A stretch of 32,529 nt of DNA, from positions 1-32,529 of the IMG/VR virus record IMGVR_UViG_3300044974_000194. One strand, 5' to 3'. The notes under the pieces are model-generated. The model did no database searches and was not told where the DNA came from. It saw only the letters and a list, made by a program, of their open reading frames with translations. Source of the DNA: a virus. Of this stretch, positions 1,790 to 32,529 are shown in pieces. Both the position numbers and the translations under genes were made by a program. The stretch's first letter is position 1. Each line of letters opens with the position of its first letter.

Positions 1790-1970
1790 AGGCATGACCC
1801 TGCGCGACTACTTCGCAGCGGCTGCCACTGAAAAAGACATTCAGGAGTTTATTCCTGCAACCTGTGGAGAAGCTGATCAGTTCCGGCAAAAACACGGATT
1901 CTTACCAAGTCGTCAGTGGGCGAGATATTGCCATGCCGACGTGATGCTTAAGGCGAGGGGGGAGAAATGA
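1611..1970 (+). CDS. GMTLRDYF-family small phage protein, C-terminal part with a new N-terminus (119 aa)
   Basis: From about residue 42 the product has the conserved EPAFPGM...GMTLRDYFAAAAT...WARYCHADVML layout of a small phage protein whose function I do not know. The first 41 residues come from the HNH gene read in another frame and look unrelated. I chose ATG 1611 because a strong Shine-Dalgarno (aaaggaga) lies 5 bases upstream, inside the HNH coding region. An internal ATG at 1752 would give only the conserved part. Thus the inserted endonuclease appears to carry a ribosome-binding site that rescues the gene it split. Confidence 0.6.
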   Translation: MTHTQNASDAQCSSQKTQTIGEGKNAAENDVQSCSQLKRGSEPAFPGMDYVSQYGKKNPEGMTLRDYFAAAATEKDIQEFIPATCGEADQFRQKHGFLPSRQWARYCHADVMLKARGEK

Positions 1971-2191
1971 GCGATACACCCAAGACAAATGCGGCAAAAT
2001 TCTGGTCTGACATTGGAGGGTGGGTAACGCCTGCCTCTAAGTTTATGGAACTGGAACAGGAACTCAACGCGGCAAACCGGCACATCAATCGGTTGGTTCA
2101 AGCTGGTGACTGCTTATTGAGTCATCGCAATAGCACCGATTATCACGAAAAAGTTAGAGAGTGGGACAAAGCAAAGAAGGACAAACCATGA
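1967..2191 (+). CDS. MSDTP-family small coiled-coil protein, paralogue 1 (74 aa)
   Basis: The N-terminus MSDTPKTNAA and the core MELEQELNAANRHINRL match a small-protein family common in phages, which begins MSDTPRTD and has an ELERELNAAN coiled coil. The biochemical role is unknown. It ends in WDKAKKDKP, the tail produced by the repeated coupling cassette. Purine-rich ribosome-binding sequence (gaggggggag) precedes the ATG, which overlaps the upstream stop by 4 bases. Relatives in this window start at 2762, 4119 and 8963. Confidence 0.7.
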   Translation: MSDTPKTNAAKFWSDIGGWVTPASKFMELEQELNAANRHINRLVQAGDCLLSHRNSTDYHEKVREWDKAKKDKP

Positions 2192-2529
2192 CAGACCTAG
2201 AAATCAATATCGCAATTGCTGAAATGTGTGGCTGGGGATTTCTTTCAAAAGATAAATTTATTGTTATACCGCCCAATAGTCCGTATAGCGTTCAACCTCT
2301 TTCAACAATTACTGATTATGTTAACGATCTCAATGCGATGGCGGAAGCAGAGCAGATTCTGGACTCTACGAATGGAGGAATCACAGACCCAAGTTGCTTG
2401 CGCTACGCATACGGCAGTGAGATCTACCGTATCGTTCCAAATGATATTCAACCATTCAGGGCATCAGCCCGTCATCGTGCAGAAGCGTTTCTCAGGACGG
2501 TTGGAAAATGGAAGGAGTCCAATCCGTGA
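2188..2529 (+). CDS. Phage small protein, possible ABA-sandwich domain (113 aa)
   Basis: The layout MTDLEINIAIAEMCGW...YVNDLNAMAEAEQIL...ASARHRAEAFLRTVGKW matches a widespread small phage protein in which a GW-containing start, an NDLNAMxEAE helix and an RAEAFLRTxGKW end are conserved. I associate this with the Phage_ABA_S type domain, by memory only. Function is unknown. ATG 2188 overlaps the previous stop, which is preferable to a longer start at 2161. It ends WKESNP at another coupling site. Confidence 0.65.
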   Translation: MTDLEINIAIAEMCGWGFLSKDKFIVIPPNSPYSVQPLSTITDYVNDLNAMAEAEQILDSTNGGITDPSCLRYAYGSEIYRIVPNDIQPFRASARHRAEAFLRTVGKWKESNP

Positions 2530-2543
2530 GCGACATTCACTAA
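2526..2543 (+). other. Vestigial coupled start, GTGAGCGAC followed by stop after five codons
   Basis: A ggaaggagtccaatcc ribosome-binding region leads to GTG, which overlaps the upstream stop exactly as at neighbouring junctions, but the frame reads only VSDIH before TAA. The VSD beginning is that of the MSDTP family, so this may be the stub of a deleted gene or a translated mini-leader for the next gene. Confidence 0.4.
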
Positions 2544-2561
2544 ATCAGGCAGTTTCACCGA

Positions 2562-2765
2562 ATGCTAAAACCGAAACAACCAATGAAAGACTCAAGACCA
2601 ATCATAGCCGGACTAATCGCAGGACTTGTTGCCGCTGCATGCATCCTCTGGGGAGGACATACCGGAGCGCGACAGGTAAAGGAACATGCGGTCATCAAAG
2701 GCCACGCCGAATGGGTGGCCGATCAGAGCGGAAGAGCAGTGTTCAAATGGAAGGAGGCGAAATGA
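2562..2765 (+). CDS. Small single-pass membrane protein (67 aa)
   Basis: One hydrophobic segment (about residues 14-30, PIIAGLIAGLVAAACILWG) is followed by a soluble tail with the GHAEWVxDxxGRAVFKWKE pattern seen in many small phage membrane proteins of unknown role. The positive residues before the segment suggest N-in, C-out, though topology is uncertain. ATG 2583 (MKDSRP) is an equally plausible start; neither has a clear Shine-Dalgarno. The last codons contain GGAAGGAGG, which serves the next gene. Confidence 0.65.
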   Translation: MLKPKQPMKDSRPIIAGLIAGLVAAACILWGGHTGARQVKEHAVIKGHAEWVADQSGRAVFKWKEAK

Positions 2766-3112
2766 GCGACACCCCAATATCAGACAGCACTCCGCACAAC
2801 GTAGCCGATCTGGGAATGCTGTGCAGGAGGCTGGAACGCGAACTCACAGCGGCAAACTCAATCATCCGGCAGCAGCAATTATTGGATGAGGAGAACCTGC
2901 GGTTACAAGAGTGGATCAAGCGGCTGGAGGAGGCTCTTGCAGCGTACCTAGACCTTCTAGGAACCGATGGTGTCGAGCAGGGAGTGGCTGTGGTGCGTGG
3001 GATGAAAGAGCGCATCAAGCGGTTGGAGGAGGCGGGGGATAGAGCGATTGAGAACTCATACTATCCAGACCGAGTTAAAGTGTGGCACAAAGCCAAGGAG
3101 GCCAAGCCGTGA
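2762..3112 (+). CDS. MSDTP-family coiled-coil protein, paralogue 2 (116 aa)
   Basis: It starts MSDTPISDSTPHN and carries CRRLERELTAANSI, the family core, followed by two copies of an IKRLEEA heptad-like segment (around residues 56-62 and 88-94), so most of the protein is likely a coiled coil. It ends VWHKAKEAKP. Start ATG 2762 has an AAGGAGG 5 bases upstream and overlaps the previous stop. A longer reading frame upstream (to 2216) is only a shadow of other genes. Function unknown. Confidence 0.7.
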   Translation: MSDTPISDSTPHNVADLGMLCRRLERELTAANSIIRQQQLLDEENLRLQEWIKRLEEALAAYLDLLGTDGVEQGVAVVRGMKERIKRLEEAGDRAIENSYYPDRVKVWHKAKEAKP

Positions 3113-3113
3113 G
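3095..3113 (+). repeat. Coupling cassette copy 1 (SD plus overlapping stop/start)
   Basis: The 19-base unit aaggaggccaagccgtgag holds a perfect Shine-Dalgarno, and GTG overlaps TGA. In the upstream frame it encodes KEAKP then stop; in the downstream frame GTGAG starts the next gene. It recurs at 3412-3430 and 3606-3624 and in looser form at 1967, 2188, 2526, 2762, 3841, 4119, 4403 and 4618. Confidence 0.85.
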
Positions 3114-3429
3114 TGATACAATTATTCTTGATAGCAAAAAGTGCAACGCGGAATTACTAACCATCCACGCCGACGGCCGCATCACTGTAGCCGAGCATCT
3201 TAAACCTACGGAGACAGCAGCGAAGGTGTTACAGATCATGCGCGAGCAATGGTTGGCCGACATCCAATCCAAAAAGATCCGCGAGCAAGAGGACCACATC
3301 AAGCGGTTGGAGGAGGCGGGGGATGCAGTCGAAGAACGACTTGGCTGCGGGTGTGGATGCGGTGGGCCTTGTCGGGCTTGCCGTAGCGCATCCGAGAACT
3401 GGTTTAAAGCCAAGGAGGCCAAGCCGTGA
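3109..3429 (+). CDS. Unknown protein with coiled coil and Cys-rich knot (106 aa)
   Basis: It starts GTG (read as Met) SDTIILDSKK. A strand-rich N-terminus (LLTIHADGRI) leads to a charged helix with EDHIKRLEEAGDAVEERL, which matches the IKRLEEAGD segment of the gene just upstream at the DNA level as well, so part was probably copied between them. The C-terminus has CGCGCGGPCRAC, six cysteines in 12 residues, a possible metal site. It ends KAKEAKP. Function unknown. Confidence 0.65.
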   Translation: MSDTIILDSKKCNAELLTIHADGRITVAEHLKPTETAAKVLQIMREQWLADIQSKKIREQEDHIKRLEEAGDAVEERLGCGCGCGGPCRACRSASENWFKAKEAKP

Positions 3430-3430
3430 G
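3412..3430 (+). repeat. Coupling cassette copy 2
   Basis: The sequence is identical over 19 bases to 3095-3113, ending the Cys-knot gene with KEAKP and starting the membrane-protein gene at GTG 3426. Confidence 0.85.
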
Positions 3431-3623
3431 CATCACAATCAAATCGTGGATCGTGCCAGCACTCATCACCGTAATCCTGCTGTGCATCATGTTCAGGCCA
3501 TACCGTTCCAGCGGGCAGTATGACTTTGGACAGATCTTCCGGCTGTTTTGGCTGATACCTATTGGAGCCGTTTGGATAATTTATATGGGAATTCTTTTAA
3601 TTATTAAGGAGGCAAAGCCGTGA
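3426..3623 (+). CDS. Small two-pass membrane protein (65 aa)
   Basis: Two hydrophobic segments, about residues 8-22 (VPALITVILLCIMF) and 39-60 (FWLIPIGAVWIIYMGILLII), are separated by a polar RPYRSSGQYDFGQIFR loop. No catalytic motif is seen. It could be an accessory membrane or lysis-timing protein, but nothing in the sequence proves this. GTG start by overlap in the coupling cassette; it ends IIKEAKP at the next copy. Confidence 0.65.
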   Translation: MSITIKSWIVPALITVILLCIMFRPYRSSGQYDFGQIFRLFWLIPIGAVWIIYMGILLIIKEAKP

Positions 3624-3624
3624 G
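3606..3624 (+). repeat. Coupling cassette copy 3
   Basis: The sequence aaggaggcaaagccgtgag differs from copies 1 and 2 at one base. It ends the membrane-protein gene with KEAKP and starts the gene at 3620. Confidence 0.85.
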
Positions 3625-3844
3625 AACCTCAACTGAAACACTGATCGCAGCCATGCACATATTGGCAACAGAAATCCAATCCGACGATGGCGTGGCCAAC
3701 TCAGCAATCGCTGAAGCAGGGGAGCGACTAGCGGAGCAGCATATGCGCATCACCCAATTAGAGCGTGAGAACGACGCTCTCCGCGCCGATCTGCTGCTGT
3801 GGGACAAAGCTGGCATCGGATTTACCACGGAGGACAAGCCGTGA
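3620..3844 (+). CDS. SDDGVANxAIAEAxERL-family small protein (74 aa)
   Basis: The motif EIQSDDGVANSAIAEAGERL is the hallmark of a widespread small phage protein of unknown role. It is followed by a leucine-zipper-like stretch (ITQLERENDALRADLLL). GTG start within a coupling cassette. Ends EDKP. Confidence 0.65.
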   Translation: MRTSTETLIAAMHILATEIQSDDGVANSAIAEAGERLAEQHMRITQLERENDALRADLLLWDKAGIGFTTEDKP

Positions 3845-4122
3845 ACCTCAACGATTCCCAGCGCAAGCTCATCACCAACAGCATTTCCACTGTTTGGAAG
3901 GGAAAGCGCGAATGCCCGATCTGCATCCCCACCACCGTTTGGGGCATTGGAACCCTCGTTGAGGTCCGAGAGTTCAACGAAGGTAATCACTGCCCCGGCG
4001 CAGCCATCACCCCACTGATACAAGTCGAGTGCCAAAACTGCGGGTACACCGTTCTGTTCAACGCCATTGCATTGGGTGTCGTTGACCGAGACACCGGCAA
4101 GGTGAAGGAGGGAAAGCTGTGA
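3841..4122 (+). CDS. Zinc-ribbon-like small protein (93 aa)
   Basis: CPIC near residue 25 and CQNCG near residue 66 form two CxxC knuckles typical of a zinc ribbon, with a conserved VLFNAIALGV segment after the second pair. I have seen this architecture in small phage and bacterial proteins of unknown function; nucleic-acid binding is a guess. GTG start with GGAGG 8 bases upstream, overlapping the previous stop. Confidence 0.65.
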   Translation: MNLNDSQRKLITNSISTVWKGKRECPICIPTTVWGIGTLVEVREFNEGNHCPGAAITPLIQVECQNCGYTVLFNAIALGVVDRDTGKVKEGKL

Positions 4123-4406
4123 GCGATACACCAAGGACGGATGCTGTCGATGCTTACATACGAACAAGAAGAGAGTTTTCAATAACAGACCATCAAGTGT
4201 GGCAAGAACATGGTGAGCATTTGGAACGAGAACTCAACGAAGCCAACAAAACAAACAGACTCCAATACGAACTGATAACGACCGCAGAAAAGCGTGGAGT
4301 AGATAAAAGTAAAGAGGAACTCAATCGTCTCAACGACCGCATCAAACAACTCGAAGCCAAAGTGGACGAACTCCACGACTTGGAGAAATGGTTGGAGGGA
4401 AGATGA
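4119..4406 (+). CDS. MSDTP-family coiled-coil protein, paralogue 3 (95 aa)
   Basis: This is the clearest member of the family: MSDTPRTDAVDAYI, then GEHLERELNEANK, then a long heptad region (LNRLNDRIKQLEAKVDELHDL). GTG start behind GAAGGAGGG, overlapping the upstream stop. The role is unknown. The family's N-terminal TPRTD box and coiled coil suggest oligomerisation or partner binding. Confidence 0.7.
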   Translation: MSDTPRTDAVDAYIRTRREFSITDHQVWQEHGEHLERELNEANKTNRLQYELITTAEKRGVDKSKEELNRLNDRIKQLEAKVDELHDLEKWLEGR

Positions 4407-4621
4407 TTGTACCCATCGGCCCTGCCGCATTCGTGTTCTGTCACAAGCGAACCGGCCAGATTGTCGTCGTACCCAACGAACGATGGCATGAATTGTACGA
4501 CAACAAAGAGGACTGGGAACACACTGCGAGCGTGAATGCTTGTGGCGCACTTCAGTACATCATCGACGTCAAACCGGCTGAACGGAAACGATACATCAAG
4601 TCACTTACGGAAAAGCCATGA
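4403..4621 (+). CDS. Unknown protein (72 aa)
   Basis: The family is not recognised. The product is soluble, with one cysteine near each end of the globular part and a basic tail (ERKRYIKSLTEKP). I chose ATG 4403, which overlaps the previous stop and follows TTGGAGGGAAG; the alternative ATG at 4388 would overlap its neighbour by 19 bases. Confidence 0.6.
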   Translation: MIVPIGPAAFVFCHKRTGQIVVVPNERWHELYDNKEDWEHTASVNACGALQYIIDVKPAERKRYIKSLTEKP

Positions 4622-28981: not shown

Positions 28982-29191
28982 ATGAAATGTCCGTCCTGCA
29001 ACTGCATTTTTGCCGCAAGTCTCCGCGAGATCGCGAAGGAGTTGGGTGCGTCCAAATCGTCGGCAAAGGCCGAAGCTTCCCGCGCAAATGGAAAGCGCGG
29101 AGGTAGGCCAAAGAAGACCAATGAAACAAGAAATTATTCCAAGTCAGAAACAGTCCGCGCTCGCGATAATGGCGAGCAAATTCAGCGTTGA
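28982..29191 (+). CDS. Small basic protein with CxxC (69 aa)
   Basis: MKCPSCNCIF followed by LREIAKELGASKSSAKAEASRANGKRGGRPKK: a CxxC start and a Lys/Arg/Gly-rich stretch common in small phage proteins with a GKKGGRPKK end. It overlaps the following recombinase gene by 71 bases in another frame, and its last third is probably only the by-product of that overlap. DNA binding is possible. Confidence 0.5.
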   Translation: MKCPSCNCIFAASLREIAKELGASKSSAKAEASRANGKRGGRPKKTNETRNYSKSETVRARDNGEQIQR

Positions 29192-29783
29192 ACCCGCTCG
29201 TTTGCTGGAGACGCTGAAGGCAACCCTAATGCCCAAAGCAACGAACGAAGAGCTTCTCTCCTTCGTTGTCACCGCTAACCAGTACGGACTCAACCCGTTT
29301 ACCCGAGAGATCTACGCTTTCCCCGCGCGGAATGGTGGCATCCAGCCCGTTGTCTCAGTCGATGGGTGGATACGCATGATGAACAATCACGCGAGCTTCG
29401 ACGGCATCCAGTTCACGACCGAAGACAAAGACGGAAAGCCGTTCAGCGTAACCGCTACGATTCATCTCAAAGACCGGACCCATCCGGTGGAAGTGACTGA
29501 GTATTTCTCGGAATGCTCGCGGAATACTGAGCCGTGGAAGGTCAATCCTCGACGGATGTTGCGACACAAAGCGTTGATCCAATGCGCTCGCGTAGCGTTT
29601 GGGTTCAGCGGCATCACTGACGAAGAGGAAGCCATCCCGCAAGCTCCGGTCAACGTAACTCCATCGCGTCCAATCTTCCGCAGCAAGCTGGAGCCGAAGG
29701 TTGAACCCGAGTCTGAACCGACTCCGTCAGTGGTTGTTCAACCCACCGAGTTGACTCTTAACGAAGGGAAATCCAATGAGTGA
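29121..29783 (+). CDS. RecT/Bet-like single-strand annealing protein (220 aa)
   Basis: The core (LLSFVVTANQYGLNPFTREIYAFP...IQPVVSVDGWIRMMNNHASFDG, then WKVNPRRMLRHKALIQCARVAFG) is typical of the Bet/RecT family, which anneals complementary single strands. The acidic Pro-rich C-terminus is usual. Start ATG 29121 (MKQEIIPSQKQ) keeps overlap with the previous gene short; 29010 is also open but reads as shadow. The following gene encodes an exonuclease, giving an annealase-exonuclease pair. Confidence 0.88.
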   Translation: MKQEIIPSQKQSALAIMASKFSVEPARLLETLKATLMPKATNEELLSFVVTANQYGLNPFTREIYAFPARNGGIQPVVSVDGWIRMMNNHASFDGIQFTTEDKDGKPFSVTATIHLKDRTHPVEVTEYFSECSRNTEPWKVNPRRMLRHKALIQCARVAFGFSGITDEEEAIPQAPVNVTPSRPIFRSKLEPKVEPESEPTPSVVVQPTELTLNEGKSNE

Positions 29784-30876
29784 CGAACGCAGTGGATTAC
29801 CGTCAGCGTCCGCAGCGAGCCGCTACGCTGCTTGTCTCGGAAGTTGGTGGCTTGAAAAGCAAATCGCAGAAGGTGTTGCCACGCACGACGCGACCATTGG
29901 AAACCGCATCCATGCGGCTCTTGCAATGGAGCCGGTGGAGAACCTGACATCAGACGAGACGTGGACCATTGATCGCTGCCGAGAGCAGGAACTGGAATTG
30001 GTGAAAGCGACGTTTCCAGAAACCATCGAAGAGCCGAGTGTGTGGCGCGAGAAGCGTTTGTGGTCCATCGATGACCGTGGGGTCAAACTCTGGAGCGGTA
30101 AGCCAGACGTTATCTACGTTGTCGGCTCCGCTGGTCTGATTATCGACTACAAGAGCGGTCGCGGTGCAGTCGAGGACGCTGCCGAGAACCTCCAGTTGCG
30201 GTGCTTGGTTGCTCTGCTCGACGAGAACTTTGGTTTCACATTCGACCGCATCACTGTGGCAATTGTGCAGCCTCTTGCAGGACTGCCAAGTGTCGCGGTC
30301 TACGAGTCAGCGGATATCCGCAATGCAATCGCGGAGTCTGCTGACCTGATGGAGCAGATCCAGAAGATCGGACATCCCCGCACTCCGTCCGAGTCCGCTT
30401 GCAAGTATTGCAAAGGCAAACCGTATTGTCCCGAAGCGCGGGAGCTTGCCATTGCTCCTCCGTTGAGCAATGCGCCAGATGGCATAACGCCAGACGCTAT
30501 AGCATCAACGTTGACCAATCAGACGCTTGGAGCGTTCTTGGACCGTGCAGCACAAGCGGAGGCTGTCATTGAGGCTTGCCGGTCAGAAGCTCGACGGAGA
30601 TTGAGCGAAGGGGACTCCATCGAAGGTTGGACGCTCAAAGAAGGATCGGTGCGCGAATCTATTTCAAACTCTGAAATAGTTGCGTCTCGGTTCTTGGAAC
30701 TTGGAACTTATGAGCAGCTAAGTTCCGCAATCACGCTGAACAAAACGAAGCTCAAAGATGCTCTAAAGGTTGCGACTGGAACTAAAGGTCGCGACTTGGA
30801 ATCAAAGCTGGATCAACTGCTTGCTGGCTGCACTGAAAGCAAGACCGGACAACCCACACTTACGAAGATCAAATGA
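29776..30876 (+). CDS. Cas4/RecB-like PD-(D/E)XK exonuclease with Fe-S type cysteines (366 aa)
   Basis: The active-site motif is KPD (D111), IDYKSG (D124, K126) and ENLQL (Q140). Cys20 near the N-terminus and a C209xxC212...C218 set after the catalytic core give the four-cysteine layout of Cas4/AddB type iron-sulfur nucleases. The SASAASRYAACLGS start resembles DUF2800 proteins. It would resect DNA ends to feed the annealase. The start overlaps the RecT-like gene by 8 bases. Confidence 0.8.
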   Translation: MSDERSGLPSASAASRYAACLGSWWLEKQIAEGVATHDATIGNRIHAALAMEPVENLTSDETWTIDRCREQELELVKATFPETIEEPSVWREKRLWSIDDRGVKLWSGKPDVIYVVGSAGLIIDYKSGRGAVEDAAENLQLRCLVALLDENFGFTFDRITVAIVQPLAGLPSVAVYESADIRNAIAESADLMEQIQKIGHPRTPSESACKYCKGKPYCPEARELAIAPPLSNAPDGITPDAIASTLTNQTLGAFLDRAAQAEAVIEACRSEARRRLSEGDSIEGWTLKEGSVRESISNSEIVASRFLELGTYEQLSSAITLNKTKLKDALKVATGTKGRDLESKLDQLLAGCTESKTGQPTLTKIK

Positions 30877-31307: not shown

Positions 31308-31633
31308 GACATCTATGGTCCCGAGGATTCGGACGGCTCCATTCTGATGCTGAAGTTATTACGAATGACGACGGTAAGAGATTCCTGCTCGCTGTCGTTG
31401 AGTTTGAGAAGCGAACTCTTGCGAACGGAAAACCCTACGCGCAACGGGTCACGTTCAGATCGTTTGACCCTGAAGACATGGACTGCGTGAGGATGCTCAC
31501 TGAGGGGACGCATATCATGTTCGACGGTGATTGCGATGCGCTCGCTGAAAAGAGCGCGACTGGCTGGTGGTACGCGAATCCGCGCATCACCGGACGAATC
31601 CATGAGATCATCCCGCCGCACGATGCATCTTGA
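31304..31633 (+). CDS. OB-fold, SSB-like protein candidate (109 aa)
   Basis: Five strand-like stretches in the order of an OB fold (RGFGRLHSDAEVITN, KRFLLAVVEFEK, AQRVTFRSF, GTHIMFDGDCDA, GWWYANPRITGRIHEI) suggest a single-strand DNA-binding protein. No acidic IPF tip is present, unlike the gene at 8664. Its place between exonuclease and RusA fits. Start ATG 31304 overlaps the previous stop. Confidence 0.6.
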   Translation: MRHLWSRGFGRLHSDAEVITNDDGKRFLLAVVEFEKRTLANGKPYAQRVTFRSFDPEDMDCVRMLTEGTHIMFDGDCDALAEKSATGWWYANPRITGRIHEIIPPHDAS

Positions 31634-32045
31634 TTTCCATGTCAGCGGAATCCCAAAGGCTCAACCGCGAGTCAAAGCGTTTGTGCGCGGTGGTCATGCG
31701 GGAGTCTACACTCCAGATTCAGCCGAGTCTTGGAAGCGAGCGGTCCGTCAGGAAGCCACTGCAAACGCTCCACGTTGCCTTCTGACGGGTCCGATTAGGT
31801 TGCAGCTCGACTTCTTCCTTCCACGACCCAAAGCGCATCTGGACAAGCACGGAGTCCCGAAGGCACAAAGTCCGGTTTGGCATTGCAAAAAACCGGATTT
31901 GGACAACCTCATCAAAGCGGTGACCGATGCGATAACCGACACTCAACGAGTCTGGTTGGACGACAGCCAGATTTACCAGATTACAGCGGTGAAAACATAC
32001 GCTCTGTACGCTTCGGGATGCAGCGTAAGGATCAACGCTGACTGA
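31623..32045 (+). CDS. rusA: RusA-type Holliday junction resolvase (140 aa)
   Basis: KKPDLDNLIKAVTDAIT (D92, D94) and RVWLDDSQI (D113, D114) are the hallmark acidic motif of RusA, which cuts Holliday junctions symmetrically. The N-terminal VSGIPKAQPRVKAFVRGG also fits. The length is typical (RusA of E. coli is 120 aa). The start overlaps the preceding gene by 11 bases; a longer start at 31527 would be a shadow. Confidence 0.88.
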   Translation: MHLDFHVSGIPKAQPRVKAFVRGGHAGVYTPDSAESWKRAVRQEATANAPRCLLTGPIRLQLDFFLPRPKAHLDKHGVPKAQSPVWHCKKPDLDNLIKAVTDAITDTQRVWLDDSQIYQITAVKTYALYASGCSVRINAD

Positions 32046-32455: not shown

Positions 32456-32529
32456 AAGAGGGGCGCGACTCTCCAACGCGCAACAAACCATAACTCATAC
32501 CATCAAATACCATGACTTTTCCAAAGCTC
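32456..32529. repeat. Terminal direct repeat, right copy
   Basis: The right copy matches 7-80 without mismatch. The window ends within the gene that starts at 63 (its ATG is at 32511 here), so this partial frame is not annotated twice. Confidence 0.95.

Follow-up and report, generated by a model that had tools for sequence, protein, structure and literature searches.

Why should a run of short viral genes with differing bodies end in nearly the same few amino acids? The question is raised by positions 1967-4621 of IMG/VR virus record IMGVR_UViG_3300044974_000194, a stretch of 32,529 bases referred to here as the window, in which ten short genes overlap nearly throughout and several end in KEAKP or a variant of it. 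A reading made from the DNA letters alone (the sequence-only reading) had noticed that a nearly identical 19-base unit at 3095, 3412 and 3606 both ends one gene and starts the next, and had suggested that this unit dictates the tail and serves as a homologous joint at which unrelated genes are swapped. Our analysis of related viral loci leads us to regard a refined form of this idea as very probably the best explanation: the unit would be a standard translational joint that is also a site of short-homology exchange, and it is accompanied by an in-frame connector within the genes themselves.

The 19-mer AAGGAGGCCAAGCCGTGAG combines a stop codon, a Shine-Dalgarno (SD) sequence and a start codon. 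It occurs exactly, on the plus strand like all copies described here, at 3095-3113, where it forms the KEAKP* tail of the gene at 2762-3112 and the SD and GTG start of the gene at 3109, and at 3412-3430, the junction of 3109-3429 and 3426-3623; at 3606-3624 (3426-3623/3620-3844) a single base differs (18/19). With up to three mismatches allowed there are six matches in the window against 0.02 expected from shuffles, and in all six AAGGAGG is read as KEA or similar in the upstream frame while an NTG start overlaps the TGA stop, as had been claimed. The connector may be written as AAGGAGGCCAAGCC followed by GTGAG, the first part encoding the end of the upstream protein, with the SD 7 nucleotides (nt) before the overlapping start, a layout from which coupled translation is predicted. 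The looser copies of the sequence-only reading fared unevenly. Four are real: those at 3827-3845 (16/19; TEDKP tail, 3620-3844/3841-4122), 4105-4123 (16/19; KEGKL tail, 3841-4122/4119-4406), 2512-2530 (17/19; KESNP tail, 3' of 2188-2529) and 2174-2192 (14/19; KKDKP tail, 1967-2191/2188-2529). The copy at 2762 is a short-spacer variant, AAGGAGGCGAAATGAG at 2751-2766 (KEAK*; 2562-2765/2762-3112), with a spacer 3 nt (one codon) shorter, and belongs to a class of 59 boundaries with GGAG at -9; the supposed copies at 1967 (9/19), 4403 (6/19) and 4618 (11/19) prove to be ordinary overlaps. At 2526 the GTG begins an open reading frame (ORF) of only five codons, MSDIH*, and the next longer ORF begins 33 nt downstream. 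This element of joint plus MSDIH* (2526-2561) is also found in the related locus L089 behind a different upstream gene, and a leader-type cassette may therefore exist.

The observation extends well past the window. The exact 19-mer is present in at least 119 viral-contig stretches, with up to five copies per contig, whereas neither the reversed 19-mer nor a synonymous version that keeps KEAKP* and the overlap without the SD has any match in viral contigs. With up to three mismatches the joint was found in 45 of the 46 searched records of 26-68 kilobases (kb); the copies of any one record share a strand and, nearly without exception, a single region of a few kb, and the joint pattern read backwards gave one match across the 46. 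Isolated-phage collections yielded no such array by DNA, by joint or by protein. In cellular genomes (257 gigabases) we found 11 copies of the 19-mer, all single and mostly at stop/start overlaps of unrelated genes, which shows that the stop/SD/start arrangement can arise alone; arrays were seen in these phages only. The bacterial copies, KEAKP*/GTGAG junctions in loci L203-L213, are an apparent convergence. They lend some weight to the alternative that the joint reflects translation only, that is, a convergent optimum for stop/start coupling (SD, 7-nt spacer, GTGA) around which random illegitimate recombination is filtered by selection for in-register products. Independent origin is evidently possible, and the SD bases are indeed the most conserved.

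The tails themselves speak against this alternative. We examined them by a protein-only search in loci that had been found through a helicase and were thus independent of the motif. Among KEAK[PL]* tails the stop was TGA preceded by G or A in 58/58, and the codons were AAG in 58/58, GAG in 57/58 and GCC in 48/58, compared with usages of 0.53, 0.53 and 0.26 in gene bodies. Behind all 80 KExKx* tails an overlapping ORF of 36 codons or more begins, so that in this set no tail was conserved as protein where a coupled gene was missing, the case that would have contradicted the sequence-only reading. These results support the conclusion that the DNA signal dictates the protein tail. GCC, together with AAGC in the spacer (about 0.91-0.98), is fixed although SD pairing does not need it, a pattern that points to shared ancestry of the joint and not to translational optimisation alone. 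Moreover, the SD stands at one position relative to the upstream frame in 126 cases where a free SD would permit several, and a joint inside genes, which has no start codon, behaves alike (see below). We therefore consider an account based on translation alone improbable.

Do the genes on either side of the joint actually change partners? Apart from two, the 144 distinct exact junctions each start a downstream ORF of 49 codons or more, and among them one upstream gene occurs ahead of many different followers. At a threshold of at least 14/19 there were 591 matches compared with 16 in shuffles, and these define a comparison set of 393 distinct junctions, in which 183 upstream-end types and 197 downstream-start types form 348 combinations. 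Types were defined by their DNA ends; this replaced single-linkage clustering of proteins, which had returned one giant family owing to chimeric genes. Identity steps within the joint in 369 pairs with the same upstream and a different downstream gene and in 253 pairs of the converse kind: in the former it is about 0.93 as far as the joint and 0.25-0.3 past GTGA, and in the latter it is at chance 5' of the joint and high 3' of it. Divergence begins at +4 to +6 in 105 of 136 tight same-upstream pairs and at -16 to -14 in 60 of 113 tight same-downstream pairs. Bases -7/-6 agree at 0.76/0.87 in same-upstream pairs, compared with 0.65/0.64 where the downstream gene is shared and 0.58/0.55 where the pair is unrelated. 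Variable bases as far as -6 generally accompany the upstream gene, and those from +4 the downstream gene. From the onsets and the -7/-6 pattern the switch is best placed between -5 and +3, such that a cassette carries the SD of its follower. Because many loci had been retrieved with the motif, the control was run in helicase-fetched loci, where the follower had changed in 33/47 same-upstream pairs at joints but in only 83/668 at other stop/start (NTGA) overlaps. The expectation that gene order would vary in related phages while the 19-mer was kept is thus borne out. Cassettes are also gained and lost precisely: 16 comparisons, some from overlapping loci and one of them between the window and L174, show exact insertion or deletion of one to three cassettes, and L007, L010 and L011, whose helicases are near-identical, carry other cassettes in the same place, adjoining conserved helix-turn-helix (HTH) genes.

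Exchange is not confined to gene boundaries. A second joint, CGCATCAAGCGGYTGGAGGAGGCGGGGGAT, encodes RIKRLEEAGD inside genes at 205 distinct sites. One copy (3011-3040) lies in the gene at 2762-3112 (116 amino acids (aa), MSDTPISDSTPHN .. RIKRLEEAGD .. YYPDRVKVWHKAKEAKP) and a second, reading HIKRLEEAGD (3295-3324), in the gene at 3109-3429 (106 aa, MSDTIILDSKKC); the latter is 94% identical to the copy at 3008-3040. The description of the cassettes as unrelated therefore needs qualification, since several have common N- or C-terminal modules and these two genes share the 30-nt repeat. No full-length relative of 2762-3112 was found, its DNA matches covering only the N-part in 55 cases and only the C-part in 144. 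Across the internal joint, 286 pairs have the same N- and a different C-part and 161 the same C- and a different N-part, with identity stepping over the segment, and its codons are fixed (CGG in 60/64 against a usage of 0.18). Used alone as a query, the internal 30-mer found at least 119 stretches, including 49 new loci. The terminal joint was present in 47 of these, with 139 same-strand copies and none on the opposite strand, and the next terminal joint was in frame with the internal one in 44/47. The consensus of 70 cassette types is MS..L..RIKRLExAGD..W..AKEAKP; many cassettes are therefore an N-module, RIKRLEEAGD, a C-module and KEAKP, and the connector recombines N- and C-modules in frame. 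The view of genes as the interchangeable units is in this way refined, as exchange does occur at the terminal joint and the genes are themselves mosaics with a joint inside. A frame common to several cassettes might also be expected had the array grown by tandem duplication of one ancestor, its paralogues diverging with conserved ends. However, near-identical ends sit on different starts, and vice versa, across phages; putative membrane, zinc-ribbon-like and coiled-coil genes are alike at their ends only; and the stop/start coupling of all 80 tails, with SD-type codons, also speaks against paralogy. Unrelated bodies carrying near-identical ends already contradict duplication, which we regard as extremely unlikely.

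An array that keeps its position between conserved flanking genes (in the window a CopG-like gene and HTH genes), in a single orientation and with precise insertion and deletion of cassettes, recalls integrons, where interchangeable small genes likewise share one orientation and one place. It could accordingly be read as an integron-like site-specific system whose own recombinase would cut at the joint. The integrase family PF00589 is absent from the window, however, and a tyrosine recombinase was found in just 3/46 records (no search for serine recombinases was made); the core 19-mer, by inspection only, is non-palindromic and without the extended inverted repeat of an attC-like site. Cassette order is mostly kept, and the variable bases of the joint change partner across a window, not at a single base. 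Unlike integron cassettes, those of the array are without a ribosome-binding site of their own. A site-specific system of this kind is, in our judgement, very unlikely.

We favour instead a model in which the short accessory genes at 1.9-4.6 kb form an array with one standard connector. Each cassette supplies the ribosome-binding site of its follower and depends on its predecessor for its own, and the connector would make any cassette translatable behind any other. The same 19 nt (about 27-34 nt with looser flanks) may double as homology for exchange when phages meet in mixed infections, through annealing-type recombination that the phages' own RecT-like proteins and a nuclease probably carry out. 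Aligned arrays would then gain, lose and replace cassettes, and small proteins of host interaction or counter-defence would be likely to turn over rapidly. Candidate enzymes lie close together in the window: a RecT-family single-strand annealing protein (29010-29783, plus strand; PF03837, 5.7e-29), a PD-(D/E)XK nuclease as its possible exonuclease partner (29776-30876, plus; PF12705, PF10926) and a RusA-family Holliday-junction resolvase (31527-32045, plus; PF05866). RecT-family matches occur in 28/46 array-bearing records, and a RecT-type annealing enzyme probably acts at the joints. Between unrelated junctions, the exact shared run is 15 nt or longer in 26% of pairs and 23 nt or longer in 4.8%; in a shifted control, runs of at least 8 nt occur in 0.2% of pairs. 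Red-beta requires 23-27 base pairs (bp) of identity (PMC3945230) and RecET recombination has been observed on 5-13 bp at a low rate (PMC2327257). Given these limits and the shared runs, we infer that annealing recombination in mixed infection is plausible.

Several observations weigh against this model. Exact identity falls short of 23 nt in all but 4.8% of unrelated pairs, which is little for Red-type recombination, so that exchanges would have to be rare or proceed through imperfect homology. A RecT-like protein went undetected in 18/46 records, which could be fragments or carry other proteins, and many phages with RecT-like proteins have no such arrays. The data are metagenome assemblies throughout, many loci were retrieved via the exact motif, and the motif-independent subset is smaller (104 joints). 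Most combinations were seen once. Assembly chimerism was considered as their source and set against the 30 shuffled combinations that recur in non-identical form and the stabler other boundaries in the same loci. Finally, recurrent cassette pairs kept their order in 33/38, and both orders were seen in 5 against about 21 expected if shuffled. The kept order fits replacement, gain and loss between aligned arrays better than free insertion or permutation, which refines the swapping proposed in the sequence-only reading.

The exchange reaches across phage types. The window's terminase is found in 15/46 array-bearing records; Pfam matches in the other 31 include Terminase_6N in 9 and DnaB helicase in 5, and Terminase_3 was matched in 3/46. 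Cassette ends of at least 85% DNA identity are common to records with and without the window's terminase in 40/4368 pairs, and such sharing is about as frequent between terminase groups as within them. These comparisons show apparent exchange at joints of both genes and half genes, also between seemingly unrelated phages. We lean towards a picture in which several unrelated phage groups draw on a common pool of standard-ended cassettes and half-gene modules, two DNA words acting as a universal connector for the continual assembly of new fusion proteins and operons that would be translated at once. The window's terminase reaches 36-39% identity in Verrucomicrobiota, where its best match scores 234 bits, and 38% in Pseudomonadota, with 202 bits at best.

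Comparison with known systems helps to define what is new. The nin region of lambdoid phages, a 'chain of interlinked genes' (Kroger & Hobom 1982, cited in PMC8022706), is similarly an accessory-region chain of small genes with ATGA/GTGA stop-start overlaps, but lambda nin junctions agree with one another at only 4-13/19 bases, in runs of 2-10 nt, and have no standard unit. The nin gene families lie between the lambdoid recombination/replication genes and Q; the window's cassettes are without PHROG or Pfam match to tie them to nin, and lie between the CopG-like and HTH genes. Boundary sequences have been proposed as recombination joints in phage mosaicism, as at Island3 gp67/gp68 with 18 common C-terminal residues (PMC3029335). 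The joint resembles these as a short stretch shared by the two sides of a mosaic switch, but it is one sequence at hundreds of junctions that is also SD and start, has an intragenic counterpart and spans phages of different terminases. The promoter-early stem-loops (PeSLs) of T4-type phages (Arbiol 2010, Comeau 2014, as cited in PMC4503421) are there described as regulatory elements that recur between early genes and bring about modular shuffling. They unite a promoter with a terminator, however, whereas the joint lies within overlapping coding sequence and resembles a translation signal; joint junctions leave no intergenic room for a PeSL-type promoter/terminator, although no promoter scan was made. 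Start-associated sequences (SAS) of cluster K mycobacteriophages, 5'-GGGATAGGAGCCC, are 13 bp, mostly precede ATG and, like the joint, are short SD-containing repeats ahead of the starts of non-structural genes from several families; they differ in sequence, lie upstream of the start and fix no protein tail, and the available text reports no gene exchange at them (PMC3203893).

What is new is that a single unit serves at once as stop, SD, start and exchange point, at such scale and together with a second in-frame joint. To our knowledge, within a literature search limited to open papers, there is no earlier report of such a unit. It has long been asked whether phage mosaicism arises by short-homology recombination or by illegitimate recombination with selection as the filter, and the matter is difficult to decide when, as a rule, no junction sequences are present; hundreds of junctions with a defined unit make it measurable. 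The arrangement is also a natural counterpart of standard-part assembly, with common-ended parts translatable in any order and a second connector that yields new fusion proteins in frame.

The cassette genes, all on the plus strand, encode real proteins, since related cassettes differ chiefly at third codon positions (648/349/1311 mismatches by codon position). The window's ten had no Pfam or PHROG match over noise, and searches of the 70 cassette types against Pfam, PHROGs and PADLOC returned no function, only marginal coiled-coil matches and a few PHROGs, one 'hol-like chemotaxis' and the others without described function. The gene at 1967-2191 (74 aa, MSDTPK..REWDKAKKDKP) starts at an ordinary overlap and is followed by 2188-2529 (113 aa, MTDLEINIAIAE) and 2562-2765 (67 aa, ending KWKEAK*), where a hydrophobic segment suggests a membrane protein. 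The membrane protein-like gene at 3426-3623 (65 aa) acts as an indivisible unit, full-length in 14/14 DNA matches. Beyond it lie 3620-3844 (74 aa, MRTSTETLIAAM .. LRADLLLWDKAG), 3841-4122 (93 aa), whose cysteines (CPIC, CQNC) look zinc-ribbon-like, and 4119-4406 (95 aa, MSDTPRTDA), the last joint-opened gene of the array, for which 40/51 matches span the C-part only. In other loci (L061:432-656 and others) a leader of about 30 nt stands between the joint and SDTPRTDA-type starts, giving N-termini such as MSHLVNANK.., MSNHIG.. and MSDHIP... Stem-loops are present only in some N-terminal leaders downstream of the joint, and the hairpin of the MSHLVNANK leader was rejected as a mobile or recombination element, being weak or absent in others. 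Directly left of the array, an HNH_3 endonuclease gene (1295-1789) could be a homing-type element. An exact 74-nt direct repeat occupies both ends of the record (7-80 and 32456-32529); the repeat suggests that the contig probably represents a complete genome, circularly permuted and about 32.4 kb long, and not a linear fragment, and relatives L016 and L023 run across the window's two ends joined. The sequence CATCAAATACCATG stands ahead of starts at 52-65, 317-330 and 32501-32514, in a leader without SD-like sequence, and also occurs in 18 related loci.

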